Assembly: GCF_007990445.1 (NCBI RefSeq)
Contig: NZ_AP019841.1
Coordinates: forward strand, 2,170,001 to 2,234,000
Source: Leptotrichia wadei
GTDB lineage: Bacteria > Fusobacteriota > Fusobacteriia > Fusobacteriales > Leptotrichiaceae
Length of the DNA stretch: 64,000 nt
Direction of reading: 5' to 3'
Shown: piece after piece, positions 2,525 through 62,880 of the stretch
Layout of the letters: each line of letters opens with the position of its first letter
Position numbering within the stretch: the first letter of the stretch is position 1
The notes under the pieces: model-generated
Told to the model about the DNA's origin: nothing
Databases searched by the model: none
The model's input: only the letters and a program-made list of their open reading frames with translations
Translations under genes and position numbers: made by a program

Positions 2525-2614
2525 ATGTAAACTGCTCTAATTTCTAAAAACCAGAGCTTCTTGGAAAATATATTTATATATATTTACCAAGCTCTTTGGA
2601 TAGTTCCTACCCTG
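2525..2614 (-). ncRNA. Orphan TnpB omega-RNA-like fragment in the fusA leader
   Basis: This stretch matches the conserved 3' end of the two TnpB elements at 27474-27577 and 35351-35464, in the same orientation relative to its leftward reading. Shared blocks on the plus strand include gagcttcttgg, atatatttaccaagctctt and tagttcctaccctg. The terminal hairpin has decayed from a GC-rich stem to GCTCT/AGAGC, but the following AGTTTACAT still resembles the AGTTCACTAT end of the full copies. No tnpB gene is attached. It is either a relic of an excised element or a retained small RNA or leader structure. Confidence 0.65.
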
Positions 2615-2718: not shown

Positions 2719-3189
<471 letters not shown>

Positions 3190-13761: not shown

Positions 13762-15006
13762 TTACACTACCCTTATTCTTTTAGGTGTGTTCAGCTCACC
13801 TCTATTGTATAGGACGCTTAAGTCCACAACTTTACTTTTTCTTAAAATATTTAATGCTCCATTACAATCTGCATTTAATTGATAGCCTTTACTTGTTTGA
13901 TATAGTCCTCTTTTTATTCTTTTTCCACTGAATATGTATTCTTGTGAATTTTCTTTATCATATATCGGGATTTCATCTCCATCAAAGAAACTTGCTTTTG
14001 ATGTATAACTCTCTTCTTGCAGTTTAAATTTTATTCCATATAGTTTACATAGATATATTAATTTATCTCTTAATTTTCCATATGGTATATTTACAAAGTT
14101 CTGATTATTTATGCTTCCTATATTTGAATTTCTTTGAAAATCTTCATTACATCCTAGAACTAGTTTTCCTATATCATTATTAAGACAATAATTTATAATT
14201 ATTCTTGCTGCTTTTGAAAGATAATCATTTATGCGATTATTTCTCTTTCTAGCTATTCTTTTTTGTCTTAATGTTGTGCGGGAGGTCTTTTGCTTATCTT
14301 TTATACTTTGTAATTTTGCATTTGTCTTATTATAGTATTGATTTATTGATTTTAATTTTCTACCATCTATTATGAATGAAGCTCCAGTATTTGTAACACA
14401 AGTACAAAGATTATCTATACCTAAATCTATTCCTAGTACATTGTTTTTATTTAATTCCCTTTGAACTTCTTCTACCTCATAAGTATATTGAATTTCAAAG
14501 TACCTAGAATGTTGTTTTGGTATTATTCTAATCTCTTTTATCTTCTTGCCTTTTAATACTGGTGGTAGTTTTATTGCGATTTCCTTATGTGTCTTTCTAA
14601 ATGAATTTGAATAAGGAATAATCAGCATATCGTCTTTTAATCTAACAAAACTTATAACAAGAGTTGTAAAACCATCTTTATCAAGATAATTAGGTAATCT
14701 TATTTTACCATTATATTGACCATTCTTAGCAAGTTTTAAAAGTCCAAAAAATGATTTAAAACTTCCGTCTACTTCTTTTAGAATTTGCTGAGCCATATTA
14801 GAATTTAATTTCTTGTAATTTTCACTATTTTTAAGCATTTTATAGTTTTCATTATAACTTAAATACTTTTTCTTATTAAAATAGTATTGTCTAATATTAT
14901 ATATAGCTTCATTAGTTAAGTTCTTGGCTATATGAGATAAATATTTTAAATTCCTAAACTCCTTTTTACTAAGATGTTTTACCTGTTGTTTTAATGTTAA
15001 ATACAT
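13762..15006 (-). CDS. tnpB: TnpB-family RNA-guided nuclease of IStron 1 (no zinc ribbon)
   Basis: 414 residues. RuvC I is [15 protein letters not shown] and RuvC III is [14 protein letters not shown]. Between them the usual CxxC-CxxC zinc ribbon is replaced by [17 protein letters not shown] and [12 protein letters not shown], with no cysteine pair. The RuvC II position reads [10 protein letters not shown] rather than the common VVxENL. This is a recognisable TnpB subgroup, but catalytic competence is less certain than for the two zinc-ribbon TnpBs in the window. An AAGGAGGTGAT ribosome site lies directly upstream. Expected role is retention of the element by cutting empty sites; inferred from the family. 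Confidence 0.88.
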
Positions 15007-27473: not shown

Positions 27474-27577
27474 GTGAACTACTCCCGCTTTTAGAAGCGG
27501 GAGCTTCTTGGGAAGTATCTGCTTTTGCTAGCCAAATATATTTACCAAGCTCTTCGGGCAGTCCCTGCCCTGTTTTT
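27474..27577 (-). ncRNA. Putative omega-RNA 3' region of element A
   Basis: Conserved non-coding stretch between the tnpB stop and the element end, shared with element B and, as a relic, with 2525-2614. It folds as a long-range stem (AGCTTGG with CCAAG..AGCT) followed by the terminal GC-rich hairpin. By analogy with characterised TnpB systems the guide would start in the flank just past 27474, reading TATCAAGGCAGTTTTTTTAT. Confidence 0.6.
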
Positions 27578-28669
27578 TTATTTCCTAATATTTCCAATAT
27601 CTCTTATATTCAGCGCCGCATTGTAATCTCTATCAATTTCAATCCCACAGCACTCACATTTATAACTTCTTTCTGATAATTTCAGTTCATCTTTAACATT
27701 TCCACATTTACTGCAAGTTTTCGATGACGGAAACCACTTATCTATCTTCAAAAATTGTTTCCCTAAAAACATCAACTTATATTCAAGCATTCTCAAAAAC
27801 ATTCCCCATCCATTATCTCCTACACTTTTCCCAAAATTTAATACCTGGCTCATTCCTTTCATATTCAAATTTTCAACAACCACAGCATTATAATCTTCAG
27901 ACAATTTTTTCGATAATTTATGCAAAAAATCTCTTCGACAATTTTTAATATACTCATGCAATTTTGATATTTTCATTTTTTGTTTATACCAATTTTTAGA
28001 AAATTTTACTTTTCTTGATAATGATTTCTGTAATTTTTTCAATTTTTTCTCCAACATCCTAAAATATCTTGGATAATCAGCCCTTTGGTTTTCAGAACTA
28101 ACAAATAATTCAGACATTGAAAAATCAAGTCCAATTACTTTATCTTTACTAACTACCTTTTGAATTTCTTTTTCAAATTCTGTCAAAACAGAAACATAAT
28201 AGTTTCCATTGCTATTTATCAATGTTACTGACTTTATCTTGTAATCCTTCGGTATTTCTCTATGATATTTTAATTTTATTCTTTTTAATTTTGGCAAAAC
28301 CAAATATTTGTTTTCCTCAATTCGTATTGAATTGTTCACACAATTTGTCGTGTAACTTTTAACATTATTCTTTTTAGATTTGAACCTTGGAAACTTTGCC
28401 CTCTTTTGAAAGAAATTCGTAAATGATCGTTTTACATTCAATTGAGCATTTGAAAGTGCCAAACTGTCTACTTCTTTTAGAAATCGATTTTCACTTTTCA
28501 AACTGGCAGGTGTAATTATTTTATTTTTTCCAGTTTCTTCATAAAATTTATTCGCAGTGTACAAAATCGTATTGTAGACAAAACGAACACATCCAAAAGT
28601 CTTATTTATCAATAATTCTTGATCTTTATTTGGATAAATTCTGTATTTGAATGCTAAATTATATTTCAT
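27578..28669 (-). CDS. tnpB: TnpB RNA-guided endonuclease, element A
   Basis: 363 residues, all canonical parts present. N-terminal helix-turn region with AFKYRIYPNKDQELLINKTFG. RuvC I Asp in VIGLDFSMSELFVSSE, RuvC II Glu in AVVVENLNMKGMSQ, zinc ribbon CSKCGN..CECCG, RuvC III Asp in EIDRDYNAALNIR. It is therefore predicted to be an active guided nuclease. Its ribosome site AGGAGGTG is strong. Near-identical to the gene at 35465-36562, so the two copies spread recently. Confidence 0.93.
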   Translation of the reverse strand: MKYNLAFKYRIYPNKDQELLINKTFGCVRFVYNTILYTANKFYEETGKNKIITPASLKSENRFLKEVDSLALSNAQLNVKRSFTNFFQKRAKFPRFKSKKNNVKSYTTNCVNNSIRIEENKYLVLPKLKRIKLKYHREIPKDYKIKSVTLINSNGNYYVSVLTEFEKEIQKVVSKDKVIGLDFSMSELFVSSENQRADYPRYFRMLEKKLKKLQKSLSRKVKFSKNWYKQKMKISKLHEYIKNCRRDFLHKLSKKLSEDYNAVVVENLNMKGMSQVLNFGKSVGDNGWGMFLRMLEYKLMFLGKQFLKIDKWFPSSKTCSKCGNVKDELKLSERSYKCECCGIEIDRDYNAALNIRDIGNIRK

Positions 28670-35350: not shown

Positions 35351-35464
35351 GTGAACTACTCCCGCTTTTAGAAGCGGGAGCTTCTTGGGAAGTATCTGCT
35401 TTTGCTAGCCAAATATATTTACCAAGCTCTTCGGGTAGTTCCTACCCTGTCTTCTTTTATTTTC
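35351..35464 (-). ncRNA. Putative omega-RNA 3' region of element B
   Basis: Same conserved stretch as in element A, with compensated change in one stem (GGTAGGAACTACC here, GGCAGGGACTGCC in A), which supports a conserved RNA fold. The predicted guide begins TATAGATTTGAAAGGAAAAT in the flank. Confidence 0.65.
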
Positions 35465-36562
35465 CTAATATTCCAACATCAATTTTCCAATGTTTTTTAT
35501 ATTCAATGCCGCATTGTAATCTCTATCAATTTCAATCCCACAGCACTCACATCTATAACTTCTTTCTGTTAATTTCAGTTTCTCTTTAATGTTTCCACAT
35601 TTACTGCAAGTTTTCGATGACGGAAACCACTTATCTATCTTCAAAAATTGTTTTCCTAAAAACATCAGTTTATACTCAAGCATTCTCAAAAACATTCCCC
35701 ATCCATTATCTCCGACACTTTTTCCAAAATTTAATGCCTGGCTCATCCCTTTCATATTCAAATCTTCGACAACCACAGCATTATATATTTCAGACAATTT
35801 TTTCGATAATTTATGCAAAAAATCTCTTCGACAATTTTTGATATACTCATGTAATTTTGATATTTTCATTTTTTGTTTATACCAATTTTTAGAAAATCTC
35901 ACTTTTCTTGATAATGATTTCTGTAATTTTTTCAATTTTTTCTCCAGCATTCTAAAATATTTTGGATAATCAGCTCTTTGGTTTTCAGAACTGACAAATA
36001 ATTCAGACATTGAAAAATCAAGTCCAATTACTTTATCATTACTTGGTATTTTTTGAATTTCTTTTTCAAATTCTGTCAAAACCGAAACATAATAACTTCC
36101 ATTGCTGTTTGTCAATGTTACCGACTTTATTATATAATTCTTTGGTATTTCTCTATGATATTTCAATTTTATTCTTTTCAGTTTTGGCAAAACCAAATAT
36201 TTGTTTTCCTCAATTCGTATCGAATTGTTCACACAATTTGTCGTGTAACTTTTAACATTATTCTTTTTAGATTTGAACTTTGGAAACTTCGCTCTCTTCT
36301 GAAAAAAATTCGTAAACGATCGTTTTACATTCAATTGAGCATTTGAAAGTGCTAGACTGTCTACTTCTTTCAAAAATTGGTTTTCACTTTTCAAACTGGC
36401 AGGTGTAATTATTTTATTTTTCCCAGTTTCTTCATAAATTTTATTTGCTGTATACAAAATTGTATTGTAAACAAAACGAACACATCCAAAAGTCTTATTT
36501 ATCAATAATTCCTGCTCTTTATTTGGATAAATTCTGTATTTGAATGCCAAATTATATTTCAT
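35465..36562 (-). CDS. tnpB: TnpB RNA-guided endonuclease, element B
   Basis: 365 residues with every canonical TnpB feature: AFKYRIYPNKEQELLINKTFG at the start, RuvC I VIGLDFSMSELFV, RuvC II AVVVEDLNMKGMSQ, zinc ribbon CSKCGN..CECCG, RuvC III EIDRDYNAALNI. It differs from element A at scattered positions and at the C-terminal tail (KNIGKLMLEY). AGGTGTAATTTC precedes the ATG. Predicted active. Confidence 0.93.
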   Translation of the reverse strand: MKYNLAFKYRIYPNKEQELLINKTFGCVRFVYNTILYTANKIYEETGKNKIITPASLKSENQFLKEVDSLALSNAQLNVKRSFTNFFQKRAKFPKFKSKKNNVKSYTTNCVNNSIRIEENKYLVLPKLKRIKLKYHREIPKNYIIKSVTLTNSNGSYYVSVLTEFEKEIQKIPSNDKVIGLDFSMSELFVSSENQRADYPKYFRMLEKKLKKLQKSLSRKVRFSKNWYKQKMKISKLHEYIKNCRRDFLHKLSKKLSEIYNAVVVEDLNMKGMSQALNFGKSVGDNGWGMFLRMLEYKLMFLGKQFLKIDKWFPSSKTCSKCGNIKEKLKLTERSYRCECCGIEIDRDYNAALNIKNIGKLMLEY

Positions 36563-61527: not shown

Positions 61528-62775
61528 TTACACTACCCTTATTCTTTTAGGCGTGTTCAGCTCACCTCTATTGTATAGGACGCTTAAGTCCACAACTTTA
61601 CTTTTTCTTAATATATTTAATGCTCCATTACAATCCGCATTTAATTGATAGCCTTTACTTGTTTGATATAGTCCTCTTTTTATTCTTTTTCCACGGAATA
61701 CATATTCTTGTAGATTTTCTTTATCATATATTGGGATTTCATCTCCATCAAAGAAACTTGCTTTTGATGTATAACTCTCTTCTTGCAGCTTAAATTCTAT
61801 TCCATATAGTTTACATAGATGTATTAATTTATCTCTTAATTTTCCATATGGTATATTTACAAAGTTTTGATTGTTTATACTTCCTATATTTGAATTTCTT
61901 TGAAAATCTTCATTATATCCTAGAACTAGTTTTCCTATATCATTATTAAGACAATAATTTATTATTATTCTTGCTGCTTTTGAAAGATAATCTTCTATAC
62001 GATTATTTCTCTTTCTAGCTATTCTCTTTTGCCTCAATGTTATATGCTCTATCTTTTGCTTATCTTTTATGCTTTGTAATTTTGCATTTATCTTATTATA
62101 GTATTGATTAATAGATTTTAATTTTCTGCCGTCTATTATGAATGAAGCTCCATTATTACTAACACAAGTACAAAGATTATCTATACCTAAATCTATTCCT
62201 AGTCCATTTTCTTTATTTAATTCCCTTTGAACTTCTTCTACTTCATAAGTATATTGAATTTCAAAGTACATAGAATGTTGTTTTGGTATTATTCTAATCT
62301 CTTTTATCTTCTTGCCTTTTAATACTGGTGGCAGCTTAATTTTAACTTCCTGATGAGTTTTCTTAAACAAATTTGAATAAGGAATAATCAGCATACCATT
62401 TTTTAATCTAACAAAACCTATAACAAGAGTTGTAAAACCATCCTTAGCAAGATATTTAGGTAATTTTATTTTTTTATTATCATATTGACCATTCTTAGCA
62501 AGTTTTAAAAGTCCAAAAAATGATTTGAAACTTCCGTCTACTTCTTTTAGAATTTGTTGAGCCATATTAGAATTTAACTTCTTATAGTTCTTACTATTTT
62601 TAAGCATTTTATAGTTTTCATTATAACTTAAATACTTTTTATTTTTAAAATAGTATTGTCTAACATTGTATATAGCCTGATTCTTTAAATTTTTAGCTAT
62701 ATGGCACAAATATTTTAAATTTCTAAACTCTTTTTTACTAAAATGTTTTACCTGTTGTTTTAAAGTTAAATACAT
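61528..62775 (-). CDS. tnpB: TnpB-family RNA-guided nuclease of IStron 2 (no zinc ribbon)
   Basis: 415 residues from the ATG at 62773-62775, aligned with the start of the IStron 1 protein. Ruv[17 protein letters not shown], RuvC II region VLGYNEDFQR, the cysteine-free [17 protein letters not shown] block, and Ruv[18 protein letters not shown]. Relative to copy 1 the ribosome site has lost three bases (AAAAGGTGAT instead of AAGGAGGTGAT), so it may be made less efficiently. The many scattered substitutions without stops suggest that selection kept the frame. Confidence 0.88.
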   Translation of the reverse strand: MYLTLKQQVKHFSKKEFRNLKYLCHIAKNLKNQAIYNVRQYYFKNKKYLSYNENYKMLKNSKNYKKLNSNMAQQILKEVDGSFKSFFGLLKLAKNGQYDNKKIKLPKYLAKDGFTTLVIGFVRLKNGMLIIPYSNLFKKTHQEVKIKLPPVLKGKKIKEIRIIPKQHSMYFEIQYTYEVEEVQRELNKENGLGIDLGIDNLCTCVSNNGASFIIDGRKLKSINQYYNKINAKLQSIKDKQKIEHITLRQKRIARKRNNRIEDYLSKAARIIINYCLNNDIGKLVLGYNEDFQRNSNIGSINNQNFVNIPYGKLRDKLIHLCKLYGIEFKLQEESYTSKASFFDGDEIPIYDKENLQEYVFRGKRIKRGLYQTSKGYQLNADCNGALNILRKSKVVDLSVLYNRGELNTPKRIRVV

Positions 62776-62880
62776 ATATATCACCTTTTCATCAGAGATA
62801 TTATACTATATATCCTATATCTTATCTATTAAAAAGTAATATTTTTTATTTATTTTTAAATATTTTTAAAATTTTTAAAA

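Follow-up and report, generated by a model that had tools for sequence, protein, structure and literature searches.

The window analysed here, a 64,000-nucleotide stretch of the Leptotrichia wadei genome, carries on its minus strand rpsG, which encodes ribosomal protein S7 (2719–3189), and, downstream of it in the str operon, fusA, which encodes EF-G (393–2477), both assigned by Pfam. The gap between the two genes contains a block (2527–2614, minus strand, in sense with fusA) that is a full-length right end (RE) of an IS200/IS605-type tnpB element—that is, an omegaRNA scaffold—measuring 88 nt against the 99 nt usual in its family. A covariance model trained on 13 family REs, with the fusA block left out, matched it over model positions 1–99 with 80 bits, an E value of 3e-15, and no non-standard pair. 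The same model gave 130 bits to each of the REs of two related tnpB elements in the window, also on the minus strand and identified by the model and by Pfam: one at 27474–28669 (tnpB 27578–28669, RE 27474–27572) and one at 35351–36562 (tnpB 35465–36562, RE 35351–35449).

The initial annotation of this DNA had described a TnpB guide-RNA-like fragment sharing three matches, in the same orientation, with the REs of these two elements. The matches were borne out by comparison within the window: 37 bp at 94.6% identity (E 5e-11) with the RE of the 35.4 kb element, 19 bp exact with that of the 27.5 kb element, and 11 bp exact with both. The guide-RNA likeness also stands, but the word “fragment” does not—because the covariance match spans model positions 1–99, the scaffold is complete, and it includes the terminal hairpin as well as a mutated RE end. 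About 38 further REs of the family, examined as genome stretches around the matches, occur in the same genome and were aligned with the block. Given that the inner stem of hairpin 2 is low-complexity A/T sequence, an AT-rich hairpin region might be thought to resemble an RE by chance; this candidate explanation is refuted by the E value from the independently trained model, and the exact RE edge at a canonical target in empty-site relatives (below) also speaks against it, leaving it a negligible probability. An Rfam scan of the window returned tRNAs only, a search of named genomes for the fusA-specific block gave no matches, and a search of viral contigs found the family RE on one contig only.

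Three hairpins are predicted in the block, in the layout of the family consensus, and the fold has an MFE z-score of about −5. Hairpin 1 (2598–2612; GGGUAG-GAA-CUAUCC) has a GAA loop that can pair with UUU/UUC of the RE end (2527–2531; TTTAC here, TTCAC in the family) in a predicted pseudoknot, which needs one G-U pair in G000, the genome of the window, and in the relative G003, and which has lost one pair in the relative G002. Hairpin 2 (2560–2591; CUUGG...CCAAG) has, in the block, an inner part that forms a perfect A/U stem, and the terminal, subterminal-RE hairpin (2534–2557) comprises 10 bp. A long-range AGAGCTTGG/CCAAG..AGCTCT stem proposed in the initial annotation survives in part: its CUUGG/CCAAG core is sound, but the terminal hairpin and its GAGC/GCUC extension are in competition, and one sister species has the extension broken. 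The 16 nt beyond the RE end (2511–2526, ATACACTTCTTTTAAA) would constitute the guide, and part of this segment falls within a self-complementary ACTTCTTTT/AAAAGAAGT stem (2503–2522). Upstream of the block is a promoter-like TTCAGA-17-TATAAT (2618–2646, with TATAAT at 2618–2623) that is not conserved in G003. An AT-rich long inverted repeat, TATATTTTTACAAAATTCA...TGAATTTATAAAAAATATA (2623–2672), adjoins the block on the same side; it is found in 10 of the 13 species of the genus and is therefore older than the RE insertion. No intrinsic terminator was found in the rpsG–fusA leader.

Conservation across related species was a check suggested along with the original description: the block is kept in the rpsG–fusA gap of three of the 13 genus species (G000, G002, and G003; covariance-model E values of 1e-14 and 1e-12 for the two sister species) and absent from the other ten. 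Seven of these (G001, G005, G007, G008, G009, G010, and G011) have a leader that is otherwise the same and yields no covariance-model match, and three (G004, G006, and G012) have a short, unrelated leader. Five of the seven empty leaders retain TTTTAA and, next to it, the present-day flank of the RE end—TTTTAA|ACATACTTCTT in G001 and G008, TTTTAA|ACATACTT in G010, and TTTTAA|ATATACTT in G005 and G009. In G003, where the site is occupied, the sequence is ...AGTTTAC|ACATACTTCTT; G007 and G011 have TTTCAA at the target position. The family inserts after TTTTAA, as seen where G002 has the empty site TTTTAA|TAAAAAAGAGGG, in which the guide sequence comes straight after the target, and G000 has a 195-bp element. 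Because the empty alleles thus read TTTTAA plus the same flank as the occupied allele, the right edge of the block is exact and its target canonical, with the guide derived from the flank.

On the left side, the entire left end is missing, as are some 15 nt of the old leader, and no left-end sequence was found upstream of the block in any of the three carrier species. Canonical empty sites in five relatives, together with the missing left end, identify the block as an old insertion minus its left half, in agreement with the earlier suggestion that it is the scar of such an event. A tree of rpsG plus fusA did not settle if G000, G002, and G003 belong to a single clade. The base preceding CAGGG is T in the block and in tnpB-less copies of the family and A in tnpB copies, a weak hint that the source of the block may have been tnpB-less.

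Copies bearing the same RE in the genome comprise about 29 with tnpB, eight without it, and one further copy that is 5'-truncated. All eight tnpB-less copies retain a left end and the complete RE with a short middle part between them. Seven of them (L051, L062, L070, L071, L077, L080, and L083) are 180–200 bp long and have a sigma-70-like promoter that, wherever measured, lies at a fixed distance of 8–10 nt ahead of the RE (that of L051 assigned by eye). Related copies in other species (L118, L119, L120, L121, L126, L127, L128, L134, L140, and L145) are likewise 180–200 bp long and promoter-bearing; the promoters have 9–11 of 12 matches and a spacer of 17, and some of these elements are 98% alike across species. 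Each has a complete omegaRNA scaffold and its own flank-derived guide, and we predict from this architecture that they are promoter-driven, omegaRNA-only mobile units. L077/L121 is an ordinary copy common to G000 and G002 and kept as well as the fusA block, so ordinary copies also persist between these two genomes. L080 (G000:C1:368821-369015) lies directly 3' of a tuf-like gene, another insertion beside a translation-factor gene, and the right flank of L062 contains a second partial RE end, GCAGTTTCCCGCTTCTGTAAGCGGGAGTAGTTCAC, close behind the first, which suggests a nested or tandem insertion. The window also holds two genes of a second tnpB family (13762–15006 and 61528–62784), with about 16 copies in the genome, and a single Y1 transposase gene was found in the genome.

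We think it probable that the block is an RE relic co-transcribed in the str operon, a structured and tolerated spacer rather than a locus maintained for guide-RNA supply. An IS200/IS605-type element, probably of the small tnpB-less kind, inserted at TTTTAA in the rpsG–fusA gap, probably ahead of the split of G000, G002, and G003. It has since shed the left end together with the internal promoter and can no longer move unaided. The locus is expected to be highly transcribed, and we predict sense transcription of the block within the operon mRNA, where its three omegaRNA hairpins would fold a short way 5' of the fusA ribosome-binding site; it would now most likely serve only as a tolerated spacer, which TnpB may still bind.

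A purely inert relic would be expected to lose pairs, and yet the terminal hairpin keeps 10 of 10 pairs despite eight substitutions in its 20 stem positions, counted against the family consensus standing in for the ancestral hairpin. Random substitution leaves all 10 pairs intact after eight changes with a probability of 3e-4 to 6e-4, and three pairs of the block are altered on both sides relative to the family. Moreover, the AT-rich terminal hairpin occurs in none of the mobile copies among 33 family genomes, which favours changes made in place and counts further against simple inertness. These observations suggest that pairing was kept in place and, since all pairs survive the eight substitutions, hint at selection on RNA structure. 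Together with the MFE z-score and the sense orientation within the operon, they lend some weight to the reading that the hairpins were co-opted after insertion and kept for stability or processing of the rpsG–fusA mRNA or for EF-G translation. Template switching in hairpins, however, can likewise restore or perfect pairing, the substitutions are polarised by the family consensus and not by the actual ancestral hairpin, and only two changes within the terminal hairpin separate G000 from G002. The absence of the block from ten of the 13 genus species also argues against such a role, as does the G003 block, whose hairpin 2 is 10 nt short and whose hairpin 3 contains a mismatch. Divergence is 3–9% in the block vs 6–12% in the upstream flank, a slight difference over too few sites to be decisive. 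We regard a cis-acting leader role in the fusA mRNA as possible, if rather unlikely.

A guide RNA used in trans, as the initial annotation proposed, would have the block transcript bound by TnpB made elsewhere, with the guide at 2511–2526 directing cleavage or binding. This is mechanically possible, since ISDra2 TnpB is active when its reRNA comes from a second plasmid (PMC8612924), and TnpB can excise omegaRNA from the tnpB transcript itself (PMC10278001); the complete scaffold with its retained fold, the GU-tolerant pseudoknot of G000 and G003, and the roughly 29 related tnpB genes of the genome would all be in keeping with it. Against this, a conserved promoter is absent, with TATAAT at 2618–2623 not kept in G003, the guide sequence is unlike among the three carriers and folds on itself, the RE end is mutated, the pseudoknot is broken in G002, and the left end is gone. 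Searches of the genome itself for sites combining a TAM (TTTAAC or TTTAA motif) with the guide found none above the reversed-pattern control. These results lend the proposal no support, and we judge a trans-guide role very unlikely. Equally improbable, in our estimation, is domestication of the omegaRNA scaffold in the fusA leader, whereby TnpB from any of the related copies would bind or cut it in the str-operon mRNA, linking EF-G expression to TnpB, or would take a guide from here. TldR proteins are TnpB-like, nuclease-dead repressors with guide RNAs, and the block would resemble their systems as a domesticated use of omegaRNA; unlike TldR, the two related TnpBs of the window appear, by eye, to keep their RuvC residues.

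As in ISDra2 and other tnpB-only elements of the IS200/IS605 IS1341 type, an RE scaffold is followed by a flank-derived guide (PMC8612924, PMC10097598), and the terminal hairpin near the guide and the left-edge target motif are likewise common to both. The short pseudoknot between the hairpin-1 loop and the RE end, described for the ISDra2 omegaRNA (PMC10097598), is predicted for the block in G000 and G003, with one pair broken in G002. Unlike such elements, the block has no tnpB, left end, or promoter of its own, and its RE end is mutated. Palindrome-associated transposable elements (PATEs) have IS605 ends and no transposase gene (PMC3119063, PMC7290912), and core deletions leaving the ends only have been described for them (PMC3119063; PMC7290912 section 3.8). 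PATEs have both ends, whereas the block has the right end only and thus lacks the left end expected of a mobile PATE; the intact small copies in the genome are PATE-like, with the addition of promoter-like sequence before the RE. A search for PATE promoters in named genomes returned one match, unrelated and due to chance. The promoter-bearing tnpB-less elements offer a natural setting in which to ask if non-autonomous copies are served by TnpB in trans. The relic itself shows the end of a tnpB element settling in a housekeeping operon with its predicted guide-RNA fold kept, and if the kept pairs reflect function, an omegaRNA scaffold would have been reused as an mRNA leader.
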